Shown here piece by piece: positions 1-32,999 of a DNA stretch of 32,999 bases. The notes under the pieces were generated by a model. The model ran no database searches, was not told the origin of the DNA, and saw only the letters and a list, made by a program, of their open reading frames with translations. The DNA comes from Candidatus Gastranaerophilales bacterium (GTDB taxonomy: Bacteria; Cyanobacteriota; Vampirovibrionia; Gastranaerophilales; Gastranaerophilaceae), in NCBI GenBank assembly GCA_947594025.1, contig CANQDZ010000015.1, positions 1-32,999 on the forward strand. Reading direction: 5' to 3'. Each line of letters opens with the position of its first letter. The stretch's first letter is position 1. The translations under genes and the position numbers were made by a program.

Positions 1-270
1 CTTCCTACTACACAACAGAAAATGAAGAAGAAATCGCCACGACTCGGAGTCGGCAAGGTTTGTTCTTTAAATGTGCTTTACAAAAAAGTAAACGTGAAAT
101 TTGAAGATGGAAAGATTAAAGAATATCTAAATGATAAAGTTGAAATTATAGATAGAGATGTAAATATCCAAATCGGACAAACGGATGTATTAGGCTACAC
201 TGACGGCGATGAAAATGTTGATATTAAATCTCTTGAAGATGATAAAAACAGCTCAACAGGGAACATATAA
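1..270 (+). CDS. 3' end of an unrecognised protein (partial)
   Basis: The reading frame is open from the first base of the window, and the ATG at 22 has no Shine-Dalgarno sequence in front of it. I therefore read this as the C-terminal tail of a longer protein that starts to the left, not as a small complete gene. The visible part starts basic (KKKSPR). It continues with a short beta-rich stretch of the form GVGKV-x(9)-VNVKFEDGKIKEYL, which has the feel of a Tudor/SH3-like barrel such as those ending some DNA helicases, and it ends acidic. That fold is only an impression and no function is assigned. The stop codon overlaps the rsfS start by one base (TAATG), so the two are probably co-transcribed and translationally coupled. 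Confidence 0.5.
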   Translation, partial: LPTTQQKMKKKSPRLGVGKVCSLNVLYKKVNVKFEDGKIKEYLNDKVEIIDRDVNIQIGQTDVLGYTDGDENVDIKSLEDDKNSSTGNI

Positions 271-27243: not shown

Positions 27244-30200
27244 TTAGTTATTATTCTTACTAAACTCTACTATTATACCAGATATATAATAAAACAAATC
27301 GCTCAATATGTTAAATATCTCGTCGAAGTCTTTTTGGTTTTTATTCATAATAATTATACCGTTAATGTCAGGGAGTGACTTTGGCGGTTTTTGAAAACTA
27401 TAATATTTTGTAATATTTTTATCTGCCTTGTTTTTCAATATAAGCCATTCTTGAAAAGTAAAAGGAGTATAAAGCCTGATTTCTCCCATAACTTCTCTTA
27501 TTGAAGTAATACCTATATTTTCAGCAAGAAGGCGTAATTTTATAAGTTTAATAAGATTTTGAACACTTTCCGGAAATTTTGAAAATCTGTCTTTTAAACT
27601 TAATGTCATGCTCTCAAGTTCACTTAAAGTTTTAACGTCGCTTAATTTTTTGTATTCCTGAATTTTTTGCTCGGTTGACCCTACCCATTCATCAGGTATA
27701 AATGCGGTAACATTTAAGTCTATCGTGGTCATCACTTTTTTCTTTTGTTTTTCACCGCTCTTAAGTTCGTTTATGCATTCTTCAAGCAAATTGCAGTACG
27801 TATCAAAACCGACAGATACCATATGACCATGTTGTTTTGAACCCAGCAGGTTGCCCACACCTCTGATTTCCGCATCCTTAAGCGCTATATGATATCCGCT
27901 TCCCAGTGTTGTAAAATCCTTTATGGCATTAAGTCTTTTGTAGGCATCTTGGGTTATTTCCTTTGATTTTTTATAAAAACAATAACAGTATGCCTGACGG
28001 TCAGAACGTCCCACCCGACCTCGCAGTTGATATAATTGCGCCAGACCAAACCTATCTGCATCATGAATTATAATGGTGTTGACATTTGGCATATCAAGCC
28101 CTGATTCAACAATGGTTGTGCATAAAAGAATATCAAAATCGCCGTTTACAAAGCTAACCATTGTATCTTCAAGCTGATTACCCTTCATCTTCCCGTGTGC
28201 CACTTGAATTTTTGCGTCGGGAACAAGAGCTTGAAGCTCATCTTTAAACCTGTATATAGACTCAACCCTGTTGTACAGATAAATAACCTGTCCGTCGCGC
28301 ATCATTTCGTTATAAATTGCATTTTTAAGATAATCTTCTCTCATTTCGCCGACATAGGTTTTTATGGGAAGCCTGTTTTTTGGCGGAGTATTTATAACGG
28401 ACATATCTTTAATGCCCGATAGCGCCATGTTTAACGTTCTTGGAATTGGCGTTGCGGAAAGACTCAAGATATCAATATTTTTTCTTAAGCTTTTTAGCTT
28501 TTCCTTATGTTTAACGCCAAATCTGTGCTCCTCATCAATTACAAGAAGTCCGAGATTTTTAAAGTCAATATCCTCCTGAAGAAGCCTGTGCGTTCCGATT
28601 ATTACATCACATTCGCCGTTTTTTAGCCTTTCGATTGTTTCTTTCTGCTCTTTTTTGGTTTTAAACCTTGAAAGGAGCTCGACTCTCACTGAAAACGGCT
28701 TAAATCGTTCTTCAAAGGTTTTAAAGTGTTGCAGCGATAATACGGTAGTAGGCGCCACAACCGCTGCTTGGTATCCTGACATAACGGCTTTAAATGCAGC
28801 CCTCATTGCAACTTCCGTTTTGCCAAAACCAACATCTGCGCATATTAGCCTGTCCATCGGACTCGCTTTTTCCATATCTGATTTTGTGTCATTTATGGCT
28901 TTCATTTGGTCCGGAGTTTCCGTGTATTCAAAGGCATCTTCCATTTCAACTTGCCAATTTGTATCAAAATCAAATTTAATGCCTTCGCTCATCTGTCTTT
29001 TTGCATAGAGGATTAAAAGGTCTTGCGCAATTTCTTCAACTTCTTTTTTTGCTTTGCTCTTTGTCTTTTCCCAAGCGTATCCGCCCATTTTGGATAAAGC
29101 AGGCTTAGCATTGCTTCCCGCTCCTCTGTATCTGAATAAAAGGTTTACCTGCTCTGCAGGCATATAAAGTTTATCTTTGCCTGAAAATTCAATTTCAAGG
29201 TAATCTTTATAACTGCCGTCAAGTTCCTGTTTTGTAAGTCCTCTGTATATTCCTATTCCATGAAATTGATGAACTACGTATTCTCCTTCCGATATATCAT
29301 TTACGGAATCGATATAGTCTTGAGAAGACCGATTTTGAGAGTATTTCCTGCTTGTAATATCTTTTGAACGCTGATTAAAAAGCTCTTTATCCGTAAGAAA
29401 AACGGCCTTTCCCCTCTCTATAACACCCCCTCCTAAAGATAACGGCTTTAAAATTTCAATCTTGTCGGTCGGAATTTCTTCTTCTTTTAGAATTTCCTCA
29501 AATCTTGAAGGATAATTTGTGCATGCGTAAATTTTAAAATTGTCGGATATTTTTTCTTTCAAATAATTGGTAATTTTATTTATATCAGCAGTAAATAAAG
29601 GCGGAAGCGAGCTTTCAAATTCTACATAATCATCACTTTCCGTAATAAAATTATCAAAACCGATAGCCTTAAAGTCTTTTATTTGAGATAAAAATTCTTC
29701 GCAGCTTGTGTGATTATATGACTTTAGGGGAAGCTTCATCTCATCTTTTTGATTTTTTTCAAAAAGCTCTTTCAATTCTTTATCAAAAGCTTCATACCTT
29801 CCAAGAATTTGAGAAGACTCATCATATACAATCACATAATCTTTAAAATTATCAAGGAAGCTTGATAAGTCTTTATTTAAGTATTGAAAATAATATTCTA
29901 TCCCTTCGAAATAACCTGATTCAATAAGTTTTTCTTTTATTTCATCTCCTAAGTTTTTATTTTTAAAAGGGATTTTTTCAAAATCTTCTTTTGTTTTCTC
30001 GTCTAAAATAAGCTTATAAAAAGGGTAAATAACAATATTTTCGCACTTTTTAAAGCTTTTCTGAGTTGCAGGGTCGAAACATCTGATATCTTCTATTTCA
30101 TCGCCAAAAAACTCAATCCTTACAGGGTATTTATAAAGGGGGTAAATATCAATGATATCCCCTTTGACAGAAAATTCGCCGATATCGATTGTAGTATTTT

Positions 30201-30672
30201 TTCTTTTGTAACCGAGTTTTATAAGTTTTTCAATAAAATTTTGGTAGTCAAGCTCTCTCCCTTTTTTTATTTCTACAGAATTATTATCGTAAAAATTTTT
30301 AGAGGGGAACTTCTCTAAAACTGCTTTAATTGGCGCAATTACAATATCATCGTTATTATTTATGATATTTACCTGCTCTTGGTAAATATATTTGTTTTGA
30401 AGAACATCATCATAAAGAGAAGTCTCCTGATAAGGGAAAATGCTCCCCTCAAGGTTGAGCGCATTCAAGTCGTTTTGGTATTTTAGGGCGGTTTGTTCGT
30501 TGTTAACCAAAAACAGCACCTTTTTCCCCTCATCGGTTATGGATTTAATAAGAAGAAGCTTTATCGGATTATTTAAGCCTGAAAGGGATAAAAAACCGCC
30601 GTTTTTGCGCAGCAAAAAATGTTTGATTTTTCTAATTTCTTCACCCTCTAAAATATCAGACAGTATGTTCAT
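27244..30672 (-). CDS. mfd: Transcription-repair coupling factor Mfd
   Basis: Mfd pushes stalled RNA polymerase off damaged DNA and recruits UvrA. I start at the ATG at 30672 (1142 residues) because AAGAG lies just upstream and the family begins at this point. An in-frame ATG at 30723 would add 17 residues but has no ribosome binding site. The N-terminal UvrB-like region includes SLSGLNNP and PYQETSLYDDV. The RNA polymerase-interaction domain (near 460) has VVHQFHGIGIYRGL. The RecG-like translocase has GFGKTEV (about 612-618) and DEEHRFG (about 711). QLRGRVGRSDRQAY follows, and a C-terminal TRCF domain closes the protein. Confidence 0.95.
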   Translation of the reverse strand: MNILSDILEGEEIRKIKHFLLRKNGGFLSLSGLNNPIKLLLIKSITDEGKKVLFLVNNEQTALKYQNDLNALNLEGSIFPYQETSLYDDVLQNKYIYQEQVNIINNNDDIVIAPIKAVLEKFPSKNFYDNNSVEIKKGRELDYQNFIEKLIKLGYKRKNTTIDIGEFSVKGDIIDIYPLYKYPVRIEFFGDEIEDIRCFDPATQKSFKKCENIVIYPFYKLILDEKTKEDFEKIPFKNKNLGDEIKEKLIESGYFEGIEYYFQYLNKDLSSFLDNFKDYVIVYDESSQILGRYEAFDKELKELFEKNQKDEMKLPLKSYNHTSCEEFLSQIKDFKAIGFDNFITESDDYVEFESSLPPLFTADINKITNYLKEKISDNFKIYACTNYPSRFEEILKEEEIPTDKIEILKPLSLGGGVIERGKAVFLTDKELFNQRSKDITSRKYSQNRSSQDYIDSVNDISEGEYVVHQFHGIGIYRGLTKQELDGSYKDYLEIEFSGKDKLYMPAEQVNLLFRYRGAGSNAKPALSKMGGYAWEKTKSKAKKEVEEIAQDLLILYAKRQMSEGIKFDFDTNWQVEMEDAFEYTETPDQMKAINDTKSDMEKASPMDRLICADVGFGKTEVAMRAAFKAVMSGYQAAVVAPTTVLSLQHFKTFEERFKPFSVRVELLSRFKTKKEQKETIERLKNGECDVIIGTHRLLQEDIDFKNLGLLVIDEEHRFGVKHKEKLKSLRKNIDILSLSATPIPRTLNMALSGIKDMSVINTPPKNRLPIKTYVGEMREDYLKNAIYNEMMRDGQVIYLYNRVESIYRFKDELQALVPDAKIQVAHGKMKGNQLEDTMVSFVNGDFDILLCTTIVESGLDMPNVNTIIIHDADRFGLAQLYQLRGRVGRSDRQAYCYCFYKKSKEITQDAYKRLNAIKDFTTLGSGYHIALKDAEIRGVGNLLGSKQHGHMVSVGFDTYCNLLEECINELKSGEKQKKKVMTTIDLNVTAFIPDEWVGSTEQKIQEYKKLSDVKTLSELESMTLSLKDRFSKFPESVQNLIKLIKLRLLAENIGITSIREVMGEIRLYTPFTFQEWLILKNKADKNITKYYSFQKPPKSLPDINGIIIMNKNQKDFDEIFNILSDLFYYISGIIVEFSKNNN

Positions 30673-30682
30673 AACCACTCTT

Positions 30683-30880
30683 TTAAACAATATTATCTTC
30701 AAAAAATACTGCGTTTGCAACATTTAAAACAGAGGCAAATTCTTTCTTTTTTAAAAGTGCCAAAGTTCTTTGTACAAAAGTAAACCCTTTTGCAAACGTC
30801 TCCAAGCATCCGATTTGCTTGCGAGTGCAGTTTCTTTTTTTAGGGTAAGTTACTATCGGATATTTTTTCATTTTGTTCAT
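30683..30880 (-). CDS. Doubtful small basic ORF between the acyltransferase gene and mfd
   Basis: A frame of about 65 residues starts at an ATG (30880) with AAAAAGG close by. It overlaps the acyltransferase 3' end by 41 bases and stops 10 bp before the preferred mfd start. The peptide is Lys-rich with two cysteines (CTRKQIGC) and no recognisable domain, signal or membrane segment. The long overlap is larger than others in this window, and the frame may be chance. It is listed because it fills an otherwise empty gap. Confidence 0.22.
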   Translation of the reverse strand: MNKMKKYPIVTYPKKRNCTRKQIGCLETFAKGFTFVQRTLALLKKKEFASVLNVANAVFFEDNIV

Positions 30881-31724
30881 TACCTTTTTCAAGAAGCATA
30901 GCTTTTTTCATACCGACGCTTTTAAGCTTATATTCAATGCTTTTCCACCAGTGAAGCTTGTTTTTGTAGAAATAATAATACCCTTCAAAATTTGCGTTTC
31001 CGATATCGTCCTTTTGTTTATCACAAAGCTCTTGAAACTCTTTTTCCAGTTCGCGGGTGAGTTCCCTTCTGTCAGGATTTATATTTTCAGACGTGATTGT
31101 TTTAACTTTTCCGTATTCAACAAGGATTTCTGGTCTATCCTGTCTTAAAAAGCAATACGTTGTAGCAACAGGTATTATGTTAATTCCGCCATACAATTTA
31201 ACTGCTTTTTCTATCATATAGGCAAGACCTGAATCAAACTTTTCGGGTCTGTGAAAAGGGGGGCGGATTATCCCTTGAGGAAATATTAGAAAAGCACAAT
31301 CCTTATCGTTTAATACATGTTCATAGGTATATTTTAAAGCCTGCATTGCGGTTTGAGGAGTTTTTTTGTTAACGGGATATGCTCCCACGTATTTAAAGAG
31401 AGGAAATCTGTTCATCTCCTCAATCATAATTCTAAACTTTTTAACATGGAGAAGCTTTCTCATTAAAATGTAGTGAAAACTCCCGTCCCACCAATTTGTG
31501 TGAGGAGCGTAGTAAATGGTTGCGTATTTTTTATCTCTTTCATCAAAATTTTCCCAGTTTTTAACCATAGTTGAGAAAAAACGATTTTTAATCATTTTTC
31601 CAAACACATAGTCGGCTATCATGTGCCAAAAAGGGTTATTTTGAGGTTCTCTAAAGACTTCGTATCTATGCCTGATTCTTGTTGGCGGCACATTAGAATA
31701 AAGGTCATCTGCAACTTTCTTCAT
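30840..31724 (-). CDS. PlsC-like lysophospholipid acyltransferase family protein
   Basis: This is a glycerolipid-acyltransferase-type enzyme that probably transfers an acyl chain to a lysolipid or lipid precursor at the membrane. The 294 residues contain the HX4D motif as HTNWWD (His75, Asp80). Motif III is FPQG at 148-151, with Gln in place of the common Glu. A conserved IPVATTYCF segment follows. No clear transmembrane helix is seen. The C-terminal third is basic and aromatic-rich (YYYFYKNKLHWWK). It heads the unit leading into mfd and the parvulin gene. A near-consensus promoter lies so close that transcription should start at the ATG itself. Confidence 0.85.
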   Translation of the reverse strand: MKKVADDLYSNVPPTRIRHRYEVFREPQNNPFWHMIADYVFGKMIKNRFFSTMVKNWENFDERDKKYATIYYAPHTNWWDGSFHYILMRKLLHVKKFRIMIEEMNRFPLFKYVGAYPVNKKTPQTAMQALKYTYEHVLNDKDCAFLIFPQGIIRPPFHRPEKFDSGLAYMIEKAVKLYGGINIIPVATTYCFLRQDRPEILVEYGKVKTITSENINPDRRELTRELEKEFQELCDKQKDDIGNANFEGYYYFYKNKLHWWKSIEYKLKSVGMKKAMLLEKGNEQNEKISDSNLP

Positions 31725-31730
31725 ACGAAA

Positions 31731-31759
31731 ATTTTATAAAAAATTTTACTTAGTGTCAA
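31731..31759 (-). promoter_or_regulatory. Near-consensus promoter giving a leaderless acyltransferase mRNA
   Basis: A perfect TTGACA (31754-31759) and TAAAAT (31731-31736) are 17 bp apart on the minus strand. The -10 box ends six bases before the acyltransferase ATG, so the expected start site falls on the A of that ATG. No Shine-Dalgarno sequence is present. Confidence 0.65.
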
Positions 31760-31773
31760 ATAAAGACATATAT

Positions 31774-31813
31774 AAAAATGACTCTCAAAAAATTATTTTT
31801 AAAAGTCATTTTT
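31774..31813 (-). terminator. AT-rich hairpin between the repeat field and the acyltransferase promoter
   Basis: AAAAATGACT and AGTCATTTTT form a perfect 10-bp inverted repeat around a 20-base AT-rich loop. On the minus strand the 3' arm ends in five T's, so it may stop transcripts coming from the pseudopilin side before the acyltransferase promoter. The stem is poor in GC. Confidence 0.4.
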
Positions 31814-31867
31814 GACGAATTTATCAAGCATTATGACGCAGCATCTAATTAATGTTGAAGATTATCT

Positions 31868-32150
31868 GTGATAAGTTTCTCAAGTATTGGGGGCGAAAGC
31901 CCCCTAAATTAAAATAGTAAGCTGTTTAATTTTAAGGTAGATTTGCCGGGTGTTATAGGCTCAGCCCTCTAAATTAATACGAGAGTTATTTATGATAAAT
32001 TTTTCGAGTGTTAGGGCGAAGCCCCCCTAACTTTTGAACTTCGAAGAAGTTTAAAAGTTAAGCTAAAAATATAACTCCCGAAAATTAAATCCTCGAGAGT
32101 TATCTAAATTTGGGATAGATTTATCGAGTGTTAAGGCGAAGCCTTCTAGT
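31868..32150. repeat. Four degenerate copies of a hairpin-forming intergenic repeat
   Basis: Copies start near 31868, 31936, 31992 and 32112. The last two share TCGAGTGTTARGGCGAAGCC (32004-32023 and 32124-32143, one mismatch) and an upstream CGAGAGTTAT (31980 and 32094). Three copies fold as a short GC hairpin with a GAA or GAAA loop: GGGGGC-GAAA-GCCCCC at 31889-31904, GGGC-GAA-GCCC at 32014-32024 and AAGGC-GAA-GCCTT at 32033-32045 plus 100 (32133-32145). The second copy keeps only GGC-TCA-GCC. The mix of conserved core, changed stem bases and variable spacing looks like a decayed REP-like family rather than a CRISPR. Confidence 0.7.
32028..32060. repeat. 15-bp stem-loop inside the repeat field
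   Basis: TAACTTTTGAACTTC and GAAGTTTAAAAGTTA pair over 15 positions with one G-T wobble around a GAA loop. It lies directly after the third repeat core and may be part of a composite element. Confidence 0.6.
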
Positions 32151-32179
32151 TTTGTGAGGTCAATGACCTCACAAAACTA
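32147..32179 (-). terminator. Perfect 16-bp hairpin at the end of the pseudopilin gene
   Basis: TAGTTTTGTGAGGTCA and its exact complement flank one central base and begin one base after the pseudopilin stop codon. Position suggests a terminator or 3'-end stabiliser for that gene. No run of T's follows on the minus strand, so it may work as a stabilising or bidirectional hairpin instead. It overlaps the end of the fourth repeat copy. Confidence 0.55.
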
Positions 32180-32180
32180 A

Positions 32181-32999
32181 TTAATATTTCATCTCCCACC
32201 CTTCTTCCATGATACGTCCTGCACAGCCGTAACCGTCAGTCTTTTTGCTGCATCCTTCTTCTTTGTCATCGTTTTTCCAATAGCCCCTGCAAGATTCAAG
32301 ATTCTCATATTCGCAGTTTTGAGTATAATAAACGGCAAAATCCACACTACCTTCAGGGTATAATGTGCCGTCATTGTCCAAATAAAATGTGAATAAATCA
32401 CGACCTAAAACATTTGGACCCTTTGGACCGTTAACATCAATATCCATATAACCTAAATATTCCCAAAGTTTTGTCTTGGTATTTCTTTTTTCCTGAAATT
32501 CTTTTAAAGAAGAACATCTTTTATTGCCACAATACACTGCGCTTGGAGTTTTGAGTAAATAAAAATATAAAAAAGTGCCGTCTGCTAAATATATTGCAGA
32601 ATCATACGGATCGAGGTCATCACCGTTCAAACCTTTATATTTCGGGTTGTATTCATCAGGGATATTTCCTGAACCATACTCTGCAATAACTTTAAATGTT
32701 TTAAAGAATTCATTTTTAAAATCTGAATTTTTAGGCTGTAAAATTTCCTCTGAATAAAAACTATACGACCCTGACGGCAATTTTGACCATAGAGTGGTAT
32801 CGGATAGCTTTGTAACACCGTCATTTGCCATTATGGTTCTAAAGGCATTGGTTAGGTTGTTGTAAGACTTTTTAAGCTGAGTAACATACATTTTCTTTTG
32901 ATAATTTGTGATAACGGTTGGAATTGTAAGTGCTGCAACAACACCTATGATAGCAAGAGTGATTAGAACCTCAGCCAATGTGAATGCTTTAATTTTTTT
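32181..32999 (-). CDS. Type II/IV pseudopilin-like protein, 5' end outside the window
   Basis: The frame runs to the right edge, so the start is missing; the visible 273 codons begin KKIKAFTLAEVL. This is a prepilin signal: a short basic leader, a probable cleavage between Ala and Phe, then the hydrophobic helix TLAEVLITLAIIGVVAALTIP with the conserved Glu at +5 (counting Phe as +1). The TTG inside this motif is not a true start. The body is a globular extracellular domain with six cysteines in three pairs (CGNKRC, then NCEYENLESC, then GCSKKTDGYGC), likely disulphide-bonded, and ends GRIMEEGWEMKY. Such proteins often occur in many copies in Gastranaerophilales-type genomes. Whether this one belongs to a secretion pilus, a type IV pilus or a surface protein is unknown. 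Confidence 0.88.
   Translation of the reverse strand, partial: KKIKAFTLAEVLITLAIIGVVAALTIPTVITNYQKKMYVTQLKKSYNNLTNAFRTIMANDGVTKLSDTTLWSKLPSGSYSFYSEEILQPKNSDFKNEFFKTFKVIAEYGSGNIPDEYNPKYKGLNGDDLDPYDSAIYLADGTFLYFYLLKTPSAVYCGNKRCSSLKEFQEKRNTKTKLWEYLGYMDIDVNGPKGPNVLGRDLFTFYLDNDGTLYPEGSVDFAVYYTQNCEYENLESCRGYWKNDDKEEGCSKKTDGYGCAGRIMEEGWEMKY

Follow-up and report, generated by a model that had tools for sequence, protein, structure and literature searches.

Does the mRNA of a PlsC-like acyltransferase gene from the Gastranaerophilales, gut bacteria known mainly from metagenome assemblies, begin on its own start codon? The question is raised by a promoter that stands directly before the gene in a 32,999-nucleotide stretch of DNA, which we analysed as a whole and refer to as the window. 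The source genome (G000) is a 1.51 Mb assembly in 52 contigs; its named relatives are Gastranaerophilales, the nearest being a contig of Cyanobacteria bacterium SIG30 at 67% identity. A sequence-only reading of the locus had proposed that a near-consensus promoter ends six bases before the ATG, that no Shine-Dalgarno motif precedes this codon and that the mRNA is therefore leaderless. The elements concerned, all on the minus strand, are as follows.

31754..31759, minus strand: -35 hexamer TTGACA, 6/6 match to the consensus, identical in 26/26 leaderless-type orthologues
31737..31753, minus strand: 17-base spacer; in the orthologues 17 bases in 25/26 and 16 in 1/26, with 20 distinct sequences
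31731..31736, minus strand: -10 hexamer TAAAAT, 5/6 match to the consensus, its first three bases forming an in-frame TAA stop
31725..31730, minus strand: TTTCGT, the six bases between the -10 hexamer and the ATG, predicted to be untranscribed
31722..31724, minus strand: ATG start codon, with the predicted transcription start (+1) on its A
30840..31724, minus strand: PlsC-like acyltransferase gene, 294 amino acids, with a PF01553 match and an HX4D motif at residues 75-80

The promoter stands where it had been placed, at 31759-31731 on the minus strand, and the A of the ATG (31724) is the seventh base after the end of the -10 box (31731). With 11 of 12 consensus bases and a 17-base spacer, TTGACA-17-TAAAAT has the form of a sigma-70/SigA promoter (hexamers 16-18 bases apart) and scores highest among the 16 promoter-like sites in 30000-32999; only three sites in the window match at 11/12 or better, and neither of the other two is followed by an ATG within 12 bases. 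Under a first-order Markov model fitted to the 456 upstream bases, the site itself included, a match of at least 11/12 at a distance of 5-7 bases is expected in 6e-5 of starts. The Shine-Dalgarno motif is indeed absent before the acyltransferase ATG, an absence that is partly forced, as the -10 box occupies its place. The accompanying claim that most nearby genes carry clear Shine-Dalgarno motifs is roughly right, with 15 of the 25 genes called in the window having one by a crude four-base rule.

A -10 box about six bases before a start codon marks a leaderless gene if that codon is genuine. The alternative would be a misannotated start, with an internal ribosome-binding site directing translation from a codon farther into the gene. 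Candidate internal starts do exist, namely a GTG at codon 12 of the acyltransferase and, at codon 35, the next in-frame ATG; however, 84 of 85 homologues have L or M at residue 8, as many have Y at residue 9, and residues 13-15 (PPT), 18, 22 and 25, all of which lie before codon 35, are identical in 85/85. The single gap at residues 8-9 belongs to locus L083, whose start was placed by rule at an internal GTG. Between the in-frame TAA within the -10 box, four codons upstream of the ATG, and the conserved residues 8-9 there is only one ATG, GTG or TTG, namely the ATG at 31724. Since the conserved residues precede every alternative start codon, translation starts at 31724, and because conservation and the upstream stop together fix the start codon we consider internal initiation extremely improbable. 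A translation start deeper inside the gene, which had been named beforehand as evidence against a leaderless mRNA, was thus not borne out.

The gene product matches the PF01553 acyltransferase profile at 28.3 bits, above the curated cut-off of 23, and shares with PlsC-type acyltransferases the HX4D motif, of which H75 and D80 are invariant in 85/85 homologues. PlsC-type enzymes usually have a motif of the form FPEG, whereas this protein has FPQG. Its closest solved relative by sequence is PlsC 5kym, a weak match (E 0.05), and a search of NCBIfam gave no match at E 0.1. We describe the product as a PlsC-like acyltransferase, with lysophosphatidate acyl transfer as its putative activity. Homologues occur in 183 of the 191 family genomes searched. 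A phage origin of the gene was rejected, tblastn against 50,697 phage records giving no match, as was an RNA element in the window, where Rfam gave no match at gathering scores.

The sequence-only reading had also proposed comparing the promoter-to-ATG distance among orthologues. From 110 orthologue loci (best matches only, 30 and 80 from two sets) we retained 85 distinct upstream regions after dropping 25 duplicates. A rule under which any ATG in the vicinity counts if a promoter stands at the appropriate spacing, and which so leans towards the leaderless label, assigned that label to 27 of the 85; L083 was reassigned by hand, as its hit was the internal GTG, leaving 26. In these 26 regions TTGACA is followed by a 16-17 base spacer and by a -10 box (TAAAAT in 17, TAGAAT in eight, TAGACT in one) lying six (16 regions), seven (nine) or eight (one) bases before the ATG. 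The distance is thus kept at 6-8 bases despite divergent sequence, and because the 26 regions have 20 different spacers and 19 different discriminators their shared layout is not simple recent copying. Fourteen of these promoters sit in the 35-36 bases that follow the upstream gene's stop codon.

The other 59 of the 85 upstream regions are laid out otherwise and are not leaderless: 28 lie within 30 bases of the upstream gene, 20 of them with a Shine-Dalgarno motif, and 31 received the default label 'leadered', of which 21 have a promoter 13-27 bases before the rule-chosen start and 10 do not. On the protein tree the three layout labels need three changes, a number that none of 200 shuffles matched or undercut. 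Although the leaderless label takes two changes on this tree, we do not claim independent origins of the layout, as one origin fits too and the fork that places the window's genus is weakly supported (80/8). In one group of orthologues (L081, L082, L093, L094 and L099) the acyltransferase seemingly starts with TTG behind a leader that contains GGAG.

A second alternative concerns transcription from farther away. The acyltransferase is separated by 456 intergenic bases from a pilin-like gene upstream (32181-32999, PF07963) and is followed downstream by a gene with mfd domains (27244-30723). The intergenic space contains two further elements.

31774..31813, minus strand: AT-rich hairpin just upstream of the promoter, with 18-base arms that are 89% complementary and a 4-base loop
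32071..32103, minus strand: terminator-like hairpin after the upstream pilin-like gene, with a 15-pair stem and a T-rich tail

The main transcript could arise from a farther-upstream promoter, or by read-through from the pilin-like gene, and thus carry a leader, with the promoter at the ATG playing a minor role. The length of the intergenic space leaves room for this, and two promoter-like sites of 9/12 (31956-31929 and 31858-31830) could give rise to a second, leadered transcript. Such a leader, however, would lack a Shine-Dalgarno motif at the acyltransferase ATG; two hairpins that could end transcription stand in between, the one at 31774..31813 being a possible terminator for read-through; and it is the proximal promoter that is kept in 26 divergent orthologues. 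We accordingly regard a predominantly leadered mRNA as quite improbable, and a transcript that begins on the A of the ATG as the preferred reading.

Two side observations concern the same neighbourhood. By eye, the mfd gene probably starts at ~30672 (the ATG of MNILSDIL, behind a AAAGAGTGG stretch) and not at the upstream ATG at 30723. The intergenic region also holds, at 31808-32143, four degenerate copies of a 36-base repeat, perhaps a dispersed one; its core GGCGAAGCC is exact in two of the four copies and was counted 24 times in 793 kb of genome sequence, against ~0.7 expected naively.

Other genes of the same genome share the spacing of the acyltransferase promoter. Gene calling in 40 stretches of the window's genome (793 kb) yielded 665 genes of at least 100 amino acids, of which 302 are operon-leading, that is, at least 50 bases from the upstream gene or with none in view. 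With a promoter threshold of at least 9/12, the promoter ends exactly six bases before the start in 22 of the 302, the acyltransferase included, against a background of 1.53 per position (Poisson P 2.5e-18). The peak recurs in 40 stretches taken from other genomes of the family (17 of 404, background 2.33, P 5.6e-10), where the background is noisier and includes seven genes at distance 9. At this threshold the leaderless share would come to ~7% of operon-leading genes in the window's genome and ~4% in the other family stretches. A second, broad group of promoters lies 20-40 bases upstream of the start, and its genes have Shine-Dalgarno motifs in 41 of 57 cases in the window's genome and in 47 of 67 in the other family stretches.

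The sharpness of the peak bears on a third alternative, namely that transcription starts 1-3 bases before or after the A and yields an almost leaderless mRNA, whose leader would not exceed a few bases. Such a shift is favoured by the 10 of the 26 orthologues in which the distance is 7 or 8 bases; in the window's genome, however, the peak falls exactly at six (22 genes, against none at five and three at seven), and a T precedes the acyltransferase ATG, as an initiator would want. T is likewise the base before the ATG in 34 of 39 distance-6 genes compared with 305 of 600 other operon-leading ATG genes (P 7.5e-6), which fits the expectation of a pyrimidine-purine transcription start. An offset of this kind therefore seems to us an outside chance, and a start on the A itself remains our preferred reading.

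A map made without gene calls gives a similar picture at 10/12, with ATG at distance 6 found 40 times against 17.9 expected (P 4.8e-6); distance 4 likewise has a raised ATG count (28), whereas at distance 6 neither GTG nor TTG is in excess and ATA stands slightly high, at 51 against 37.3. Counts at 11/12 are low, and the excess there is not ATG-specific (ATG 6 against 1.9, ATA 12 against 4.4, GTG 4 against 1.1). Other genes in the distance-6 set of the window's genome match Pfam models of RuvB, cytidylyltransferase, methionyl-tRNA synthetase, ETF and fumarase; two of the ten proteins scanned (MetG-like and fumarase-like) were read from the longest open frame and are slightly longer than when read from the ATG. 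The RuvB-like protein looks leaderless both in the window's genome and in G040, where the copy was named by eye.

Taken together, the fixed start codon, the distance kept in 26 orthologues and the genome-wide enrichment of the same distance give the leaderless reading strong though indirect support, and we consider it highly likely that the acyltransferase mRNA is leaderless, with transcription starting on the A of the ATG. A housekeeping sigma factor of the sigma-70/SigA type would bind TTGACA-17-TAAAAT, RNA polymerase would begin on the A of the ATG, at the seventh base past the -10 box, and the resulting mRNA would begin 5'-AUG with neither leader nor Shine-Dalgarno motif. By analogy with the leaderless route known from other bacteria, a ribosome, mainly the intact 70S particle, would then bind the 5'-terminal AUG. 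On the best reading, the acyltransferase gene appears to be one of a family-wide leaderless class. The sequence-only reading was thus right about the site itself and missed both this genome-wide and family-wide class and the different layout of 59 of the 85 orthologues.

A simple gene for testing the leaderless idea is ruvC. Its start cannot lie far inside the gene, because the PF02075 match begins at residue 3. Under the same permissive rule as for the acyltransferase orthologues, a -10 box lies 5-8 bases before the ATG in 33 of 35 family loci, giving them a leaderless look, and 21 of these have a -35 match too. The count comprises 28 of 30 loci from 23 genera (18 with the -35 match) and 5 of 5 further loci (3 with it). 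Within the class and outside the family, the box is found 5-8 bases before the start in 2 of the 26 loci with an identified start, the remaining 3 of 29 having none. Beyond the class, a -10-like box at 5-8 bases was seen in 5 of 15 ruvC loci (L293, L295, L296, L298 and L301); strict restriction to the lineage is rejected on this count, and leaderless use of ruvC may be older or recurrent in the phylum.

Whole genomes were compared by counting TTGACA-16..18-TANAAT followed by an ATG at 5-7 bases or at 11-13 bases. In 48 family genomes the pattern occurs 376 times at 5-7 bases versus 92 times at 11-13, counts to which repeated elements contribute (in G095 at least ten near-copies), and the shorter distance is the commoner one in 48/48; the window's own genome contributes only two versus one. 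The corresponding counts are 44 versus 38 in 66 genomes outside the class and zero versus one in three genomes of another family in the class. Gene-based counts showed no significant excess at distance 6 in 20 stretches of another family of the class (three genomes; 2 versus 0.53, P 0.1), and no distance-6 promoter among 235 in 20 stretches from 11 genomes of other classes of the phylum.

Some individual sites may be described in their own right. In G095 at least ten promoter-ATG sites are near-identical and end in AAATTATAATTCTAATATG; they may belong to a multi-copy gene whose promoter is of the leaderless type. A further 16 strong promoter-ATG sites (L310-L325, including G000:C30:13418-13455, which is L310) were picked by eye, so that no rate can be claimed from them; 15 are leaderless-type, and nine of those 15 contain a palindrome by a simple even-length rule. 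Among the genes that they head are a MarR-like regulator (L310), S24-peptidase proteins resembling LexA (L311 and L320, and by eye L312 and L321; four genera) and toxin genes of HigB-like (L313, L325) and Gp49-like (L315, L318) type. Eight of the 16 sites were scanned, and the L314 protein among them had no match.

From these comparisons we think it rather probable that in the Gastranaerophilaceae leaderless expression is a regular mode for particular genes, operating alongside a functioning Shine-Dalgarno system and less frequent or lacking in the sampled genomes of the same phylum, and that genes can switch between operon-internal and leaderless layouts when the short space behind an upstream stop codon acquires a promoter. 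With the same reservation, the genes concerned would be ruvC, possibly ruvB, the acyltransferase (in several clades) and genes for regulators and toxins, some of which have an operator between -35 and -10. If leaderless genes are as common as the shares of ~7% and ~4% suggest, start-codon annotation and expression prediction in the clade need a promoter-at-ATG model, and drugs and stresses directed at Shine-Dalgarno initiation could affect translation there differently.

Leaderless genes as such are an established phenomenon (PMC3160421, PMC9581028), and the leaderless idea already exists for this phylum, since Nakagawa et al. 2017 (PMC5397173) count Cyanobacteria among the phyla in which an AT-rich bias upstream of genes may point to leaderless mRNAs; that paper covers nine cyanobacterial species and does not mention Melainabacteria. 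Our searches of an open-access collection found no report of leaderless genes in Melainabacteria, Gastranaerophilales or Vampirovibrio. The proposed mechanism is the ordinary leaderless design, but it leads on to a predicted family-wide class in a clade for which no such report was found. Within the phylum, a study of Synechococcus elongatus UTEX 2973 (PMC6091082) gives 19 gene starts judged leaderless from mapped 5' ends; that organism is photosynthetic, whereas the class described here is predicted from genome sequence. As summarised in a review (PMC9031893), leaderless mRNAs are translated by 70S ribosomes from a 5'-terminal AUG, with AUG preferred over GUG and UUG in E. coli, and the ATG excess at 10/12 seen here is in line with that preference, though at 11/12 GTG and ATA rise as well. 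Another parallel is with the 'TA-led' genes of Zheng et al. 2011 (PMC3160421), a survey in which genes count as leaderless if a TA-like box lies ~10 bases before the start codon; it reports high shares in Actinobacteria and Deinococcus-Thermus, with many Cyanobacteria genomes using neither signal. The promoter box just upstream of the start is common to both, whereas in the Gastranaerophilaceae the boxes peak at one exact distance, beside a working Shine-Dalgarno system.
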